Shown here: in pieces, positions 21,095 to 27,670 of the stretch | Position numbering within the stretch: the stretch's first letter is position 1 | Layout: each line of letters opens with the position of its first letter | IMG/VR virus record: IMGVR_UViG_3300031576_001281 | Span: 1 to 28,370 of that record | DNA length: 28,370 nucleotides | From: a virus | Strand: one strand, 5' to 3' | The notes under the pieces: model-generated | What the model saw: the letters and a program-made list of their open reading frames with translations, nothing else | Told to the model about the DNA's origin: nothing | The model's database searches: none | Program-made: the position numbers and the translations under genes

Positions 21095-21466
21095 TCACAT
21101 AGAACTGTTGCGATTTGCCAAATGATTTGCAGCTGCCTGTTTGATTTGCCGAAAACGGTTACTATATGAAGCTGCCTCTGGGTTATGTTCGAGCCAGTCA
21201 TGTAGCATTAAATTGTTGTCTTTATCGTGTTCAAGCAAACCACATGAAATCAAGTCGTCAACGAAATGATATTCAGGGCCTTCCCAATCAGCTGCCATTT
21301 CTATCTGAATTGAGGACATATTGCTGAAAACACCGTCAGGTTTATATCTGGCTGCATGGCTCCACAGAACCAGCAAAGAATAAACGCCTTCTTTGCCAGC
21401 CCGCCGTTTGAGCATCTGAATTTTGGGGTGCGTATTAAAGCCGGTTTTTACACGAAAATCATCCAT
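21095..21466 (-). CDS. Winged-helix replication-like protein, paralogue of next gene
   Basis: The protein has 123 residues with GGAGATAG ahead of the ATG at 21466. It contains HPKIQMLKRRAGKEGVYSLL, then LWSHAARYKPDGVFSNMSS, DWEGPEYHFVDDLISCGLLE and LMLHDWLEHNPEAASYSNRF. This order lines up residue by residue with the N-terminal domain of the following initiator gene (K-I-x-x-L, LWS, P-x-GV, W-x-G, F-x-x-x-x-I-x-x-G, L-x-x-H-x-W, Y-x-x-x-x-R). The gene thus encodes only the winged-helix domain, without the linker and C-terminal part. It could compete for, or cooperate at, the same sites. It overlaps the upstream HTH gene by eight bases and ends in TGAGGAG, part of the next ribosome site. Confidence 0.65.
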   Translation of the reverse strand: MDDFRVKTGFNTHPKIQMLKRRAGKEGVYSLLVLWSHAARYKPDGVFSNMSSIQIEMAADWEGPEYHFVDDLISCGLLEHDKDNNLMLHDWLEHNPEAASYSNRFRQIKQAAANHLANRNSSM

Positions 21467-21782
21467 GACATTCTATCTCCATTTCATGTCCAGTATTGGT
21501 GGACATGTCTGTGTTGGTTAAAATTGGTTGTCCATTATTTTCATGATGCTGATTGTTGTCACGCCACTTGATCCAATCGACAGGCAACACACGGCCATTT
21601 GTAACCATGGCGATTTCAAGCTGTGAGTTTCGTGACGGAAAAGATATGCCAGTAGCCCAACGACTTACATGACTTTGCCAAGAACGAAACCCTCTTCTTT
21701 GTGCCAAGTCCCTGGCAAATTGTGTTTGAGTCAGGTTTTGTTGGCTAAGGTAGACTGCAAGTGGGGTAGGTATACGTTTCAT
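21459..21782 (-). CDS. Cro-like HTH regulator (first gene of leftward operon)
   Basis: This 107-residue protein has an N-terminal helix-turn-helix: PLAVYLSQQNLTQTQFARDL, then a WQSHVSRWATGISFPSRNSQ recognition-helix region (~34-55) and a helix ending in PVDWIKW. This is the usual layout of small Cro/C1-type regulators, and the 'W' after the third helix is typical. The C-terminal ~35 residues are polar and unstructured. As the first gene of the leftward operon, opposite the XRE repressor gene, it is likely Cro. A leftward promoter (21794-21822) would start RNA only about five bases before its ATG. Confidence 0.7.
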   Translation of the reverse strand: MKRIPTPLAVYLSQQNLTQTQFARDLAQRRGFRSWQSHVSRWATGISFPSRNSQLEIAMVTNGRVLPVDWIKWRDNNQHHENNGQPILTNTDMSTNTGHEMEIECHG

Positions 21783-21793
21783 GGCTACAAAAT

Positions 21794-21822
21794 AATCTAT
21801 GAATTTAGTAATATACAGTCAA
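21794..21822 (-). promoter_or_regulatory. Leftward early promoter (PR-like)
   Basis: On the minus strand TTGACT (21822-21817) and TAGATT (21799-21794) are separated by exactly 17 bases. They match the consensus at five and four of six positions. The ATG of the Cro-like gene lies 11 bases further on, giving a very short leader. The -35 overlaps that of the opposing promoter. Confidence 0.55.
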
Positions 21823-21840
21823 GTATTATTTTCATATAAT
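21812..21840 (+). promoter_or_regulatory. Rightward promoter for the XRE repressor (PRM-like)
   Basis: A perfect TATAAT (21835-21840) has TATACA (four of six) 17 bases upstream (21812-21817). It faces the XRE gene with a leader of about 85 bases. The -35 shares a base with the leftward promoter's -35, so the two polymerases would compete. Confidence 0.45.
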
Positions 21841-21847
21841 AATGAAA
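21830..21847. promoter_or_regulatory. Operator-like dyad covering the TATAAT box
   Basis: TTTCATATAATAATGAAA is an 18-bp site with six-base arms and a six-base centre. It includes the rightward -10 box, so a bound repressor would block that promoter. A weaker dyad, TTAATGATTGATTAA (21848-21862), follows directly. Confidence 0.45.
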
Positions 21848-21933
21848 TTAATGATTGATTAAGCTATTGCGTCGAATATAACTAAAGTATTAAATAGTAC
21901 ATAAGTCATGTCTCTCTTGGGGTAACAATACGT

Positions 21934-22383
21934 ATGAATGAAGGTAACCAGCCAACGCCAGATTCAACCCATATTGGCGTACGTTTGCGTCAAATACGCG
22001 AGGAACGCGGAATTTCACAAAGTACCTTGGCTAAACAAAGTGGTTTGTCACAGGCTGCTATTTCACGCATAGAAGCCTGTGAAGTAAGCCCTAGTATTTC
22101 TACGGTACGTGATATTGAAAAAGCTTTGGGTGAACCCAAAGTGAATTTACTTGTCCCTGGTAATGGTCTTGTTGAGCATATGCTTCACGAGTCTTTAGAA
22201 ATATTCTTAAATTCGGCGCTTGGTAAAGCATTAAACCTCTCTCTGGAAGAAATAGATGAAATTCGCTCTCTGCGTTGGTTTACGCCACAGGACGAGCTCC
22301 CTGGTGAGCAAGAATGGCTCGATTTTATTCGGCTGCGGCGATTTATGCGCAAGCAGCGTCGGCAAGAACCAGCACAAATTTAA
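21934..22383 (+). CDS. XRE-family repressor (CI-like, no peptidase domain)
   Basis: The protein has 149 residues. Residues ~11-65 form a textbook helix-turn-helix: VRLRQIREERGISQSTLAKQ, then SGLSQAAISRIEACEVSPSI and a supporting helix. The C-terminal ~80 residues are helical, possibly for dimerisation. There is no LexA/CI-type Ser-Lys peptidase domain, so induction probably does not use RecA-driven self-cleavage; an antirepressor is encoded nearby instead. The ATG at 21934 has a weak ribosome site (TTGGGG, too far). The stop overlaps the convergent small gene's stop within a TTAA. Confidence 0.85.
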   Translation: MNEGNQPTPDSTHIGVRLRQIREERGISQSTLAKQSGLSQAAISRIEACEVSPSISTVRDIEKALGEPKVNLLVPGNGLVEHMLHESLEIFLNSALGKALNLSLEEIDEIRSLRWFTPQDELPGEQEWLDFIRLRRFMRKQRRQEPAQI

Positions 22384-22721: not shown

Positions 22722-22750
22722 TTGACGAATAATAACTATTTTCATATAAT
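22722..22750 (+). promoter_or_regulatory. Strong promoter of the antirepressor operon
   Basis: TTGACG (22722-22727) and a perfect TATAAT (22745-22750) are separated by 17 bases: five of six and six of six, with ideal spacing. The ATG at 22760 is only nine bases beyond the -10 box, so the transcript should be nearly leaderless. The last 14 bases of this promoter (TATTTTCATATAAT) also occur at 21827-21840. Confidence 0.7.
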
Positions 22751-22759
22751 TAAACTTCT

Positions 22760-23218
22760 ATGGATGAATTAGTCTCCAAAAACATTGCTTCCGCGTGGGG
22801 CGCTATAACGATTATCGATAAGTATCGCGCACTTACAGTTCGTATTTGCACAGATGAAGATGGTAAGCCGACCCAAGGCGATTTGGAGCAATACTCATAC
22901 CTCTGGAAATTACTCCAAGGTGCCGATCCAATTTTACTGCGAAAGTTTCGAGTCTATCACAAGAATAATCCCCACATATACGAACAATTCAAAGAACTTT
23001 CGTTGGCAATGTTTCGTTCAGGACGTCAGCATTACAGTGCCTGGTGTGTCATTAACAAAATCAGATGGGACTATGACTTAAAGGTCCAGGGCAAAGACAA
23101 GTTCAAAATATCGAACGGCTACATCGCATTCTTTGCACGTATGCTCATTGCTGAGCACCCGGAGATCGATGGTTTTTTTCAACTCAAGAAGCTTGGAGGC
23201 AACCATGACACAAAATAG
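22760..23218 (+). CDS. Conserved-looking phage protein of unknown function
   Basis: This 152-residue, largely helical protein begins MDELVSKNIASAWGAITIID. The central YHKNNPHIYEQFKELSLAMF and YSAWCVINKIRWDYDLKVQG, then ISNGYIAFFARMLIAEHPEI, recall a widespread family of small phage proteins with an 'NP.vY..F', an 'IRW' and a 'YaR....P....ff' motif. I know of no assigned function. It has no ribosome site and should be translated from a nearly leaderless mRNA. Its last 14 bases overlap the antirepressor start, so it is the first gene of that operon. Confidence 0.7.
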   Translation: MDELVSKNIASAWGAITIIDKYRALTVRICTDEDGKPTQGDLEQYSYLWKLLQGADPILLRKFRVYHKNNPHIYEQFKELSLAMFRSGRQHYSAWCVINKIRWDYDLKVQGKDKFKISNGYIAFFARMLIAEHPEIDGFFQLKKLGGNHDTK

Positions 23219-23999
23219 TGCAATCCAGATTTTTAATTTTGAAGCCAATCAAGTTCGTGTAGTTTTTGACGACCATGGAGAACCTTGGTGGGTAGCTGGT
23301 GACGTTTGTAAGGCTTTGGGGCTTGAGAATACAAGTAGGGCCGTAAGTCGTTTGTTATCAAATGAGAGGGGTATCATTTCAATTGACACCTCCTATAAGG
23401 GTATTACTTCAAGTAATACCCCTGGTAACACACAACATGTTATAACCATCAACGAATCTGGCTTATATAAGTTGGTTCTTGGTTGTCGCAAACCAGAAGC
23501 TGAAAGATTCAAAACATGGGTGACAAGCGAGGTTCTACCGCAAATCAGAAAAACTGGCGGCTACAACATCAATAAGCCAGCCCTGTCCATTAATGCCCGC
23601 GACCCATTAACCGTTAATAACTTCTGTTTGGCTCTCGCAGAATACAACAAAGAGCTACAGGCTGAGCTCGAAAAAACAAAACCCAAGGTAGATTTCTATG
23701 ATCAATTTACGGATGCCAATGGTCAGTATGGCTTACAAAATGCTGGCCGCTGTCTTGGTCTGCCGCCACGCAAATTTATCGATAGCCTGCAAGAGTATGG
23801 ATACCTGTTTCGTGAAGGCGGCCAACTTATCCCCAAAAGCCAGTACATCGAGCAGGAATTATTCACTGTAAAAACTACCCTCGTTGATAACAGAGCGTAT
23901 TTGCAAACTTTCGTGACACCAAAAGGCCTGCAGTATCTTGCAAGACAAGTCGACGCTGACCAGCAGATGATGTTGTTTGTGAATAAGGAGATGAACTGA
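23205..23999 (+). CDS. ant: Phage antirepressor (BRO-N + KilAC/ANT domains)
   Basis: The ATG at 23205 (264 residues) follows GGAGG; an upstream start in frame is not needed. Residues 1-115 form a BRO-N domain: FDDHGEPWWVAGDVCKALGL, NESGLYKLVLGCRKPEAERF and SEVLPQIRKTGGY. Residues ~140-260 form a KilAC/ANT-type C-terminal domain (TDANGQYGLQNAGRCLGLPP, then FIDSLQEYGYLFREGGQLIP and FVTPKGLQYLARQ). Antirepressors of this type bind or titrate repressors to start lytic growth. BRO-N carries an 18-residue insert (about 56-73) built from a 24-base imperfect repeat that forms dyads. It ends just before the convergent small HTH gene. Confidence 0.9.
   Translation: MTQNSAIQIFNFEANQVRVVFDDHGEPWWVAGDVCKALGLENTSRAVSRLLSNERGIISIDTSYKGITSSNTPGNTQHVITINESGLYKLVLGCRKPEAERFKTWVTSEVLPQIRKTGGYNINKPALSINARDPLTVNNFCLALAEYNKELQAELEKTKPKVDFYDQFTDANGQYGLQNAGRCLGLPPRKFIDSLQEYGYLFREGGQLIPKSQYIEQELFTVKTTLVDNRAYLQTFVTPKGLQYLARQVDADQQMMLFVNKEMN
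23370..23423 (+). repeat. Two tandem 24-base imperfect repeats forming dyads, in the antirepressor gene
   Basis: Copies start at 23370 and 23400, 30 bases apart, and match at 17 of 24 positions. Each is a dyad about a central C. The second (23399-23421) has perfect 11-base arms, GGGTATTACTT and AAGTAATACCC. The first has eight of ten pairs. Thirty bases is three helical turns, so two bound proteins would lie on the same face. Confidence 0.5.
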
Positions 24000-24324: not shown

Positions 24325-24352
24325 TTGTTTGAATATTATGTTTTTATATAAT
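24325..24352 (+). promoter_or_regulatory. Promoter of the recombination-integration operon
   Basis: TTGTTT (24325-24330) and a perfect TATAAT (24347-24352) are 16 bases apart; the -35 is weak. The start codon of the exonuclease lies about 40 bases downstream, with GGAGG seven bases before it. Other -10-like boxes occur in this very AT-rich region (24286-24393), which otherwise holds no gene. Confidence 0.4.
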
Positions 24353-24370
24353 ATATTATTATATAACATA
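24337..24370. promoter_or_regulatory. 34-bp inverted repeat over the operon promoter
   Basis: Left arm TATGTT plus ATATAATA, interrupted by TTT, pairs with the right arm TATTATATAACATA: 14 pairs, a three-base bulge and a three-base centre. It overlaps the -10 box and probable start site of the rightward operon and sits between two divergent genes, as expected for an operator of the HTH protein at 24013. Confidence 0.5.
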
Positions 24371-24393
24371 AATCACTATATTGGAGGCACCTC

Positions 24394-25329
24394 ATGTTAA
24401 CCGAACAAGACCAAGAATTACGCAAAGGCAAAATAACTAGTACTCGTATTGCCATGATTGCAGGGTTATCCAAATATGGTGGTCCAATCGACGCATATCA
24501 GGAAATCCTGGGAATTGGTCCTGAAAAAGAAACCACGGCAGATATGCAACGCGGGCATTACCTCGAAGACGCATGTCTACATTGGTACAGAGATCAATAT
24601 GGCGTGGCCATTACGCCTGGCAAAACATCCATTCACCCACAATTTGAATGCTTTGCAGCAACGCCCGATGGTATTGCAGAGAATGGTAGTAACAAAATAG
24701 TCATCGAAGCCAAATCACCACGCGAAGCATCTCATTGGGGTGAAGCCAATACCGATGACATTCCAGATTACCACGTCTGCCAAGTGGCATGGGAAATGGC
24801 TTGCTTGGATATGTCCAAAGCCCATGTGGTAGCCTATGTAAACCATGAGTTTCGTTGCTACAAGATTGAGCGCGATAAGGATTTAGAAAACCAGCTCATC
24901 GAAATAGCCCATACGTTTTGGCAAAAACATATTCAAAGCAAAACACCTCCTGAAGCTGATGCGTCGAAATCTTATGCCGATTTTTTAGCACGAACATTTG
25001 CCAAGCATAGTGACAATCTGATTGCTGCTGATAACGAAGCAACAGCCTGGGCCATGGAATATTTCAAGAACCGTAAGCAACGAGAAACATTTGAAGAACG
25101 TGAAGAAAAAGCCAAAAACCATCTCAAGAAATTAATCGGTGACAACTATGGCATGCGTGGTGATGGCTTCACTATCGTTTGGCGCGAAGTCAAAGGTCAG
25201 AAGTCCATTGCCTGGCAAGAAATTGCCAACAAACTTGGTGTGACCCAAGACATGATTCATGAGCACACCTGCCTTGGTAAAGCTCATCGCCGATTCAATG
25301 CAACGTTGCTTGCGGAGTTGGTGCCATGA
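24394..25329 (+). CDS. YqaJ-type phage exonuclease (lambda-Exo-like)
   Basis: This 311-residue protein belongs to the YqaJ viral recombinase group of PD-(D/E)XK nucleases, which resect double-strand ends to leave 3' single strands. Residues in order: ITSTRIA (14-20), RGHYLEDA with E58, ATPDGI with D92, IEAKS with E105 and K107, then Q130 in HVCQVAWE, the expected catalytic set. The C-terminal ~110 residues are helical. The ATG has GGAGG seven bases upstream. It overlaps the RecT-like gene by ATGA and so forms an exonuclease-annealing protein pair. Confidence 0.9.
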   Translation: MLTEQDQELRKGKITSTRIAMIAGLSKYGGPIDAYQEILGIGPEKETTADMQRGHYLEDACLHWYRDQYGVAITPGKTSIHPQFECFAATPDGIAENGSNKIVIEAKSPREASHWGEANTDDIPDYHVCQVAWEMACLDMSKAHVVAYVNHEFRCYKIERDKDLENQLIEIAHTFWQKHIQSKTPPEADASKSYADFLARTFAKHSDNLIAADNEATAWAMEYFKNRKQRETFEEREEKAKNHLKKLIGDNYGMRGDGFTIVWREVKGQKSIAWQEIANKLGVTQDMIHEHTCLGKAHRRFNATLLAELVP

Positions 25330-26174
25330 GTACAAGAACACTTGTGCAACGCACAAATATGTACGTTTTGCGACCGACAAACTTCAACGAAGCATTACAA
25401 TTTGCAGAGTTGATTGCCAAAAGTGACTTTGTACCGAGAGACTACAAAGAAAAACCAGGCAATGTACTTGTGGCGATCCAAATGGGTTCTGAACTTGGCC
25501 TTGCTCCCATGCAAGCGCTACAAAATATTGCAGTTATCAATGGCAGACCAACAGTATGGGGTGATGCAATGTTGGCATTGGTTACTGCGCATAAAGATTG
25601 CGTGGATATCCAAGAAAGTATTGATGATGAAAAAGCCACGTGCACGATAAAACGCCGCGGTCGAAGTCCCATTACACGCACCTTTACAATAGCAGAAGCA
25701 AAGCATGCAGGACTCGCTGACAAACAAGGTCCTTGGAAACAGTATCCTAAACGCATGCTACAAATGCGAGCGCGAGCCTTTGCATTACGCGATGCGTTTC
25801 CAGATGCGCTGAAGGGTCTCAACATGACTGAAGAGGTCATGGATTATGATGAATCACCGGCAACGACAACTTTTACTTACGTGAATGGCCATGAACCACA
25901 AGATGAACAGGCATATGAAGTGGCGAATGAATCACAAACAATGGGCAAACCAAATTATCTGGAACTAATACAACAAGCACAAACTTGCGATGAGCTACAA
26001 AAACTTGGAGCTGACATCAAAGCTGCAGAGCTTAAACCTGAGCTTCGTGACGAGTTAAGACAAGCATATACAAAAAGATGGCAAGTATTATCCGTGCCCA
26101 AGACTCAAAAAGTATCAGCCAAACTTAAATCGCGATTACGAGCAGACACTCTCATCTCGGAACCAGTGACATGA
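25326..26174 (+). CDS. RecT-like single-strand annealing protein
   Basis: The protein has 282 residues. The region NVLVAIQMGSELGLAPMQAL with NIAVINGRPTVWGDAMLALV (~45-85), then PWKQYPKRMLQMRARAFALR (~137-157), is characteristic of phage proteins annotated in the RecT family. It anneals single strands that the adjacent YqaJ exonuclease exposes. The C-terminus is polar and includes a LELIQQAQTCDELQKLGADI helical segment. ATGA overlap with the exonuclease and a four-base overlap with the excisionase gene show tight coupling. The exact subfamily is not determined. Confidence 0.8.
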   Translation: MSTRTLVQRTNMYVLRPTNFNEALQFAELIAKSDFVPRDYKEKPGNVLVAIQMGSELGLAPMQALQNIAVINGRPTVWGDAMLALVTAHKDCVDIQESIDDEKATCTIKRRGRSPITRTFTIAEAKHAGLADKQGPWKQYPKRMLQMRARAFALRDAFPDALKGLNMTEEVMDYDESPATTTFTYVNGHEPQDEQAYEVANESQTMGKPNYLELIQQAQTCDELQKLGADIKAAELKPELRDELRQAYTKRWQVLSVPKTQKVSAKLKSRLRADTLISEPVT

Positions 26175-26385: not shown

Positions 26386-27564
26386 ATGCCGCGAACAAGA
26401 CGAGGTAGGGGAGAAGGCTCGATTTATTATCGACCAGATCGAGGTGGCACTTGGGAAGCTCAAGTAAGTCTCGGTTACGATCAAAAGGGTCAGCGCATTC
26501 GTAAAACTATTTTTGGCAGATCGAAAAAAGCAGTACAAGACAAACTCGCGGCACTACAAAATGATGCAACAACAGGTCATGTGACTTCAACCCAAATGAA
26601 TATGGAACAATATCTAAAACATTGGATCGAAGCACGTACAAGTGAACTGCGAGTCACGACGGTTCTTCGCTATCAAGAAATCATACGACTCCATATCAAT
26701 CCGTTTATTGGCCAGTTGAAACTCACAAAAATTGAACCAAGCCACGTGCAACGACTTTACAATACGCTTAAAGAACAAGAACGCAGTAATCGTATTATGC
26801 AACTTGCTCATATTGTTTTGTCTGCTGCACTGAAGCAAGCGTGCCGATGGGGTTACTTGCGTATTAATGCATGTTCCTTGGTACAGAAACCAAAATATCA
26901 ACGCAAAGAAACAGATGTATGGACCGTTGATCAATGCCTCACTTTTTTTGAAGCATCAAAATTAGACCGCTATTATGCACTGTATGTTTTGGCAGCAACG
27001 ACCGGCGCAAGACTTGGAGAATTGTTGGGATTACAGTGGAAAGATATCGATCTTGAAAAAGGTCTGGTACACATTCGTAGAACTTTGATCGAATTGCCTG
27101 ACAAATTTGTACTTGGTGAGCCAAAAACCACTCGCAGTAAACGCCCCATATCACTACCAGAAATTGCCATCACTGCTTTCCGTGAACACCGCAAAAAAAT
27201 GTTTACTGAGGGGCATGCGGGTCCAAAAGTATTTTGTGATACAAAAGGTGGTTATGTCCATCGCGATAATTTACGTAATCGCTCGTTCTACAAAATCATC
27301 AAACAATCAGGTCTTCCTAAAATTCGCATTCACGATTTACGTCACACACTTGCAACATTATTACTCAAAGCTGGAACACATCCTTCTATTGTTGCAGCAC
27401 AACTTGGTCATGCCAGTACAAAAACTACCCTCGATATTTACAGTCATGTGCTGCCTGAAATGACTCGTGATGCGGCACAAAAAATCGATACTACATTTAA
27501 TGAAGCCCTGAGATTGGCAGGCATTAGGCAGGTAACGGATCAAAATGACGCACCTTCCAAATAA
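26386..27564 (+). CDS. int: Tyrosine integrase
   Basis: The protein has 392 residues. The N-terminus (1-60) carries an AP2-like arm-binding domain (EGSIYYRPDRGGTWEAQVSL and onward). Residues ~72-165 form a SAM-like core-binding domain. The catalytic domain shows R209 in TGARLGELLGL, K247 in EPKTTRSK, H316 and R319 in IHDLRHT, H342 in LGHAST and Y352 in IYSH, the full set. AAGGTG precedes the ATG. The gene ends 28 bases from the CCA of the tRNA, which fits integration at the tRNA 3' end. It is the last gene of the exonuclease-RecT-Xis operon. Confidence 0.95.
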   Translation: MPRTRRGRGEGSIYYRPDRGGTWEAQVSLGYDQKGQRIRKTIFGRSKKAVQDKLAALQNDATTGHVTSTQMNMEQYLKHWIEARTSELRVTTVLRYQEIIRLHINPFIGQLKLTKIEPSHVQRLYNTLKEQERSNRIMQLAHIVLSAALKQACRWGYLRINACSLVQKPKYQRKETDVWTVDQCLTFFEASKLDRYYALYVLAATTGARLGELLGLQWKDIDLEKGLVHIRRTLIELPDKFVLGEPKTTRSKRPISLPEIAITAFREHRKKMFTEGHAGPKVFCDTKGGYVHRDNLRNRSFYKIIKQSGLPKIRIHDLRHTLATLLLKAGTHPSIVAAQLGHASTKTTLDIYSHVLPEMTRDAAQKIDTTFNEALRLAGIRQVTDQNDAPSK

Positions 27565-27592: not shown

Positions 27593-27670
27593 TGGCGCGC
27601 CCGGCATGATTCGAACATGCGACCTACGGATTCGTAGTCCGGCGCTCTATCCGGGCTGAGCTACGGGCGC
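27593..27670 (-). tRNA. tRNA-Arg (anticodon ACG)
   Basis: On the minus strand the cloverleaf is complete. It has acceptor GCGCCCG with CGGGCGC, discriminator G and encoded CCA (27595-27593). D stem GCTC/GAGC encloses a loop containing GG. The anticodon loop is CTACGAA (anticodon ACG), and the T stem GCATG/CATGC encloses TTCGAAT. One odd point is that the bottom anticodon-stem pair is C opposite T. It is 78 bases with CCA and reads Arg codon CGU and, with inosine, CGC/CGA. Its 3' end is the prophage boundary, so part of it may have come from the phage. Confidence 0.95.

Follow-up and report, generated by a model that had tools for sequence, protein, structure and literature searches.

A family-wide dyad inside BRO-N antirepressor genes, duplicated in a viral genome, as a probable binding site for the encoded BRO-N domain

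Operators may lie inside genes, as do lacZ O2 and other auxiliary intragenic operators, which are found within the coding region and are auxiliary to a promoter operator. The lambda O protein binds iterons inside gene O, four in number, which act as origin. In Escherichia coli the purB operator is situated at approximately codon 62. Repression at this operator is ascribed to a transcriptional roadblock by PurR, in the accounts that cite the original work (He and Zalkin, 1992, cited in PMC10310618 and PMC4132739). The site that we describe here, in the gene for a phage antirepressor with a BRO-N domain, would resemble that of purB in being an operator within coding sequence where a bound dimer stops RNA polymerase. 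However, PurR is the product of a separate gene and acts at many further operators, whereas the BRO-N site would be inside its binder's own gene, in the DNA-binding domain, and conserved in a superfamily. The likeness to lambda O is that a phage DNA-binding protein has dyad sites in its own gene, with coevolving specificity, but lambda has four origin iterons and BRO-N genes usually have one dyad. With lacZ O2 the site shares its location in a coding region, although no promoter copy was found for the BRO-N site. By analogy, the purB roadblock and lambda O/ori may be taken as precedents for self-repression.

BRO-N, KilA-N and ORF6N have been grouped into one superfamily of domains found in phage and viral regulators (Iyer 2002, cited in PMC4862756), and BRO-N is like KilA-N, APSES and Mbp1 in domain family and perhaps in its predicted winged-helix fold. 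These domains count among the most frequent regulators of phages and viruses, and the DNA that they read is little known; for KilA-N this holds for recognition sequences outside fungi (PMC4862756). A literature search of open-access papers found no report of palindromes inside Bro-N, KilA-N or ORF6N genes.

The window, by which we mean the whole 28,370-base stretch of a virus record that was analysed, contains a plus-strand coding sequence for a protein of 264 amino acids (23205..23999), with Bro-N at residues 16-112 and KilAC/ANT at residues 152-248. Both domains scored over curated cut-offs (Bro-N PF02498, 88.5 bits; KilAC PF03374, 79 bits) and the PHROG match was anti-repressor Ant, so that by domain content the protein is a phage antirepressor of the Bro-N plus KilAC type. 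Searching for close relatives of the phage or gene gave distant antirepressors, plus one 5.3-kb contig. This contig (L093), whose terminase was 92% identical, was the only close phage relative found, and the antirepressor was not found on it.

A preliminary description of this DNA had placed two dyads within the Bro-N coding region, 30 bp apart from centre to centre, both centred on a C and one of them with perfect 11-base arms, and both were indeed present. Copy 1 (GGTATCATTTCAATTGACACC, 23370-23390) forms 8 of 10 pairs and has asymmetric half-sites, ATCA/GTCA. In copy 2 (GGGTATTACTTCAAGTAATACCC, 23399-23421) perfect 11-bp arms flank one C, and the half-sites are ATTA/ATTA. Copy 2 exceeds in length every other perfect dyad in the window's 28,370 bp (spacers of up to 8 nt), an arm of at least 11 was seen in just 0.3% of synonymous recodings of the antirepressor gene, and by recoding only 0.12 of 34 genes would be expected to have such an arm.

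The two copies are identical at 16 of 21 positions with an offset of 30, and alignment showed that relatives lack a 10-residue insert at exactly the duplication point. The pair is therefore an imperfect 30-bp tandem duplication of 10 residues (GIISIDTSYK/GITSSNTPGN; 23370..23429, plus strand), present as a single unit in relatives. The duplication and the residues it adds to BRO-N had been recognized before, but the unit, given then as 24 bases, is better read as 30 bp (10 codons) with a best-conserved part of 21-24 bp. The spacing had also been taken as three helical turns that put both dyads on one DNA face, in the manner of paired operators; as it merely equals the duplication length, it is no independent evidence for helical phasing. 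The peptide insert, which might have been encoded elsewhere without a dyad, occurred in no relative, while most relatives have the dyad and no insert. No source for the insert was found elsewhere in the window, which held no further match to the dyad site with up to 3 mismatches allowed, and viral contigs contained no exact copies of the dyads; an inserted palindromic repeat element was rejected on these grounds.

All five differences between copy 1 and copy 2 are in the arms and each keeps or creates pairing, and five substitutions made at random would yield a perfect dyad from copy 1 with a probability of about 1e-4. The differences resemble one template switch plus two point changes, as would be seen if the site had no present function here and a tandem duplication, followed by quasipalindrome (template-switch) correction, had acted on a dyad that conserved residues happen to encode. 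Such a process may explain how copy 2 became perfect in this phage. As an account of the site as a whole we consider it very unlikely, as mutation alone leaves unexplained the fixed place in the family, the frozen third codon positions and the covariation with a protein helix that are set out below.

The dyad was assessed as a family feature in a wide set of 158 BRO-N genes with less than 80% nucleotide identity. About half to two thirds of these had a dyad in the corresponding position, its arms being entirely different in sequence, and in about a third of the genes sampled a clear dyad was absent within the region scanned. A best dyad score of at least 8 was reached by 44% of the 158 genes vs 1.3% of synonymous recodings and 1.3% of neighbouring windows, and a score of at least 10 by 18% vs 0.1% and 0.3%, respectively. 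Dyad centres clustered at approximately -40 nt from the NESGLY codons; the centre of copy 2 is at -41 nt, the family's usual distance. An alignment of 69 relatives on GIISIDT showed that the homologous 21 nt were often a dyad with differing arms (for example GGTCTGCAGACTGTGCAGACC, GGCCGGAATTCAATTCCGACC and ACCCTCGTTTCAATCGAGGGT). The 64 distinct homologous 21-mers had a mean of 6.30 of 10 pairs, compared with 4.07 ± 0.15 under synonymous recoding and 4.03 ± 0.17 when right halves were shuffled among genes (maximum 4.75 over 5000 shuffles). The encoded residues also pair as reverse-complement codons (V/D, R/P, V/H, L/Q, T/S) above shuffled halves. Measured against the recoding and shuffle nulls, a dyad within the gene of a DNA-binding protein exceeds coding needs, and in these alignments the twin dyads of the window are a duplicated copy of a family-wide intragenic site. 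The other clear tandem-dyad BRO-N gene (L072:2681-2734) has dyads 32 bp apart with different half-sites: a symmetric one, CTAA/CTAA, which fits its S-K helix, and an asymmetric one, GTCA/GTCG. On the strength of two cases only, duplicating the site may make it easier to change specificity.

Several properties of the dyad bear on whether it acts as DNA or as RNA. Its odd centre reads A/T-N-A/T whichever of the three codon frames it falls in. Almost all arms pair at offsets 4-7, 9 and 11, and fewer do so at 3 and 8. Among 26 independent pairs of close relatives, 94% of third codon positions were identical inside the dyad vs 77% outside, and changes were concentrated at -3, -2 and -8/-9. The arms were conserved within clades and switched between clades, as expected for a protein-binding site with a changing reader. 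The preliminary description had also allowed for an mRNA hairpin, and a stem-loop acting on the antirepressor mRNA through its translation, its decay or its pairing with an sRNA would agree with the folding of copy 2 (-11.8 kcal/mol, z -5.2) and with compensatory arm changes across the family. However, G-U was no commoner than other mismatches in the arms (GT 15, AC 25, other 62; in a second set GT 6, AC 8, other 15), the arm sequence and not pairing alone was kept within clades, and the arms change with the protein helix. No T-run comes after copy 2, which does not look like a terminator, and an Rfam gathering search matched no RNA family. A structured mRNA element was therefore rejected, stems not favouring G-U wobble and no Rfam family being found, and we hold the stem-loop to be highly improbable. 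On this sequence behaviour the family dyad behaves as a DNA protein-binding site and not as an RNA hairpin.

We then compared the dyad with the protein encoded around it. With overall protein distance removed, differences in the dyad arms (offsets 4-7) correlated with protein columns 12-17 (mean 0.33), whereas random third-position sets did not exceed 0.03, nor did other segments of the protein exceed 0.06. In an AlphaFold2 model (pTM 0.47, with low confidence in the insert) these columns correspond to residues 43-48, which form the second helix of the helix-turn-helix and are followed by a two-stranded wing that the dyad DNA partly encodes. In the window, the predicted recognition helix is at codons 42-48 (N T S R A V S; 23328..23348, plus strand), and its S44 and R45 occupy the positions that covary with the dyad half-sites. 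The predicted wing strands follow on the plus strand at codons 55-60 (23367..23384), partly encoded by copy 1, and at codons 77-82 (23433-23450). The structural neighbours of the BRO-N model included Orf22 (Z 9.4) and the DNA-binding domains of Mbp1 (Z 7.3) and, in a DNA complex, PCG2 (Z 6.8), where a Z below 8 can reflect a common arrangement; DdrC was also among the best, with a moderate Z. A sequence search of solved structures found no Bro-N relative.

Individual residues followed individual bases. In the HVD class, R at residue 14 went with GT at -7,-6 (8/8 vs 1/33) and D at residue 15 with G at -4 (9/10 vs 3/31). S or T at residue 14 accompanied AT or CT at -7,-6, and H, Q or A accompanied G at -6, while K, M or Q at residue 15 mostly accompanied A at -4. 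The best tracking was of column 14 with -7,-6 and of column 15 with -5,-4, as in RD/RM helices with GTCG/GTCA, SD/SM with CTCG/CTCA and QR/QK with TGAC/TGAA. The rules applied in the RLD class and in the HVD class taken one at a time; since the dyads of the two classes are read in different frames, a cause acting at the protein level only is less likely. As the automatic helix parse misplaced some RLD-class rows, most weight is placed on the HVD class and on 81 phylogenetically independent pairs. Among these 81 pairs, helix and arm both changed in 36 and neither changed in 41, with 4 exceptions (p = 2e-18), and the association persisted at tree distances of at least 0.2 (p = 5e-6). The window's helix, read by hand, is N42-T43-S44-R45-A46-V47. 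A relative with an S-R helix (L100) has GTTA/GTTA, which fits the ATTA/ATTA of copy 2; few relatives share this S-R pair, and two of the HVD class have CTAC and ATAG instead. Across these comparisons, site specificity is seen to track the predicted recognition residues of BRO-N. By itself, covariation of this kind would also be expected if the reader were a partner protein that always coevolves with BRO-N.

The preliminary description had proposed an intragenic operator. With family-wide conservation and BRO-N helix covariation this is the best-supported reading, but the protein that binds is likely to be the antirepressor itself, through its BRO-N domain, and not the repressors at 21934, 21459 and 24013. 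That the dyads are bound by CI/Cro-like phage repressors, which would stop elongation of the antirepressor gene, has in its favour that helix-turn-helix regulators adjoin the antirepressor (21934-22383 and 21459-21782) and that an intragenic dyad is what such control needs. No second site was present at the repressor promoters or in the rest of the window, however, and within 2.5 kb of relatives' genes the best second matches were at chance level (12.44 vs 12.36 of 19); the only recognizable target is thus the gene itself. A paired operator of a phage repressor was rejected from the same searches. Moreover, site and BRO-N helix change together, and chromosomal genes of the dinD-like, KilA-N and ORF6N types contain palindromes of a similar kind, leaving control by these repressors extremely improbable. 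We consider it highly likely that the antirepressor's BRO-N reads the dyad inside its own coding sequence.

KilA-N and ORF6N genes, sampled in one phylum, were initially chosen as controls. Their domain palindromes proved even longer than those of BRO-N: a score of at least 9 was reached by 95% of KilA-N genes (L285-L314; 6% when recoded) and 81% of ORF6N genes (L315-L344; 1% when recoded), as well as by 76% of divergent DinD-like Bro-N genes (3.5% when recoded). HTH_3 domains from the same phylum had the dyad in 0/26, and Phage_pRha was discarded as a control family as it had too few members. Most KilA-N sites have the common form TTTTAA-N-CGAATTCG-N-TTAAAA with variable parts between, and most sampled ORF6N domains have TGAGGTC-like palindromes around LRSQxVTS. 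In four spirochaete genomes the ORF6N palindrome was matched only in ORF6N genes or their remnants. In dinD of E. coli K-12 MG1655, TGACCATTTCGAGGAGATCCTCGATATGGTCA lies within the Bro-N domain (L345:3934-3965, codons ~58-68) and has 15-bp arms with one arm mismatch.

On balance we lean slightly towards a general rule, in which the Bro-N, KilA-N, ORF6N and DinD superfamily embeds a cognate palindrome in the DNA coding for the domain. Site and reader would then be inherited as one unit and switch specificity together, sometimes via tandem site duplication with one copy following the new helix. If true, the self-site would offer regulators a general way of carrying their own address and of surviving horizontal transfer, with a coding sequence moulded at the amino-acid level by a DNA palindrome. 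If each gene holds its own site, thousands of protein-site pairs could be read from genomes, yielding a testable recognition code. It would also give phage lytic switches a likely mode of autoregulation and E. coli dinD, a well-known SOS gene suited to testing the self-site idea, a function to test.

In the mechanism that we propose, the BRO-N domain of the antirepressor would bind the dyads within its own gene. The predicted winged helix-turn-helix would, as a dimer, set two recognition helices on two half-sites at offsets 4-7 from the centre, approximately one helical turn apart, in DNA that doubles as code for the wing of the same domain. The bound protein would act on its own gene, in the simplest form as an RNA polymerase roadblock ~170-215 bp into the coding sequence, letting a lytic-switch antirepressor limit its own level. 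Of the site tandemly duplicated in this phage, the symmetric copy 2 would fit the present helix, and the asymmetric copy 1, which is perhaps older or weaker, could aid cooperative binding. Physical binding, dimerization, roadblock autoregulation and the role of the two copies are what we infer from the comparisons above, and the chances that autorepression is the main result of self-binding seem to us about even. The best sigma-70-like promoter, TTGACG-17-TATAAT (22722..22750, plus strand; a consensus match only), is upstream of 22760-23218 and the antirepressor gene and is a candidate start for the transcript that the roadblock would stop.

Self-binding might instead serve a replication origin, or mark the same gene for recognition in a rival phage. 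The own-gene location, type-specific coevolution and tandem copies are reminiscent of lambda ori, and RecE/RecT-like recombination genes (24394-26174) come after the antirepressor. Dyads are also found, though, in chromosomal E. coli dinD and in spirochaete ORF6N genes, which are not phage replication modules, and we regard an origin or mark as unlikely.

Other features were noted around the antirepressor gene and in its relatives. A TATTTTCATATAAT stretch is present in both regulatory intergenic regions of the window (21826-21848 and 22734-22750), overlapping the best promoter-like sites; these stretches, together with AT-rich dyads at 21789-21858 and 24336-24371, are candidate promoter operators. 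A BRO-N antirepressor gene that also has the dyad, here GGTGTCGGTTCAATCGACACC, is closely preceded by isrK and C4 antisense RNA (L030:2204-2406). A tRNA gene on the minus strand (27596-27670) directly follows an integrase-like gene (26386-27564) and is a likely attachment site.
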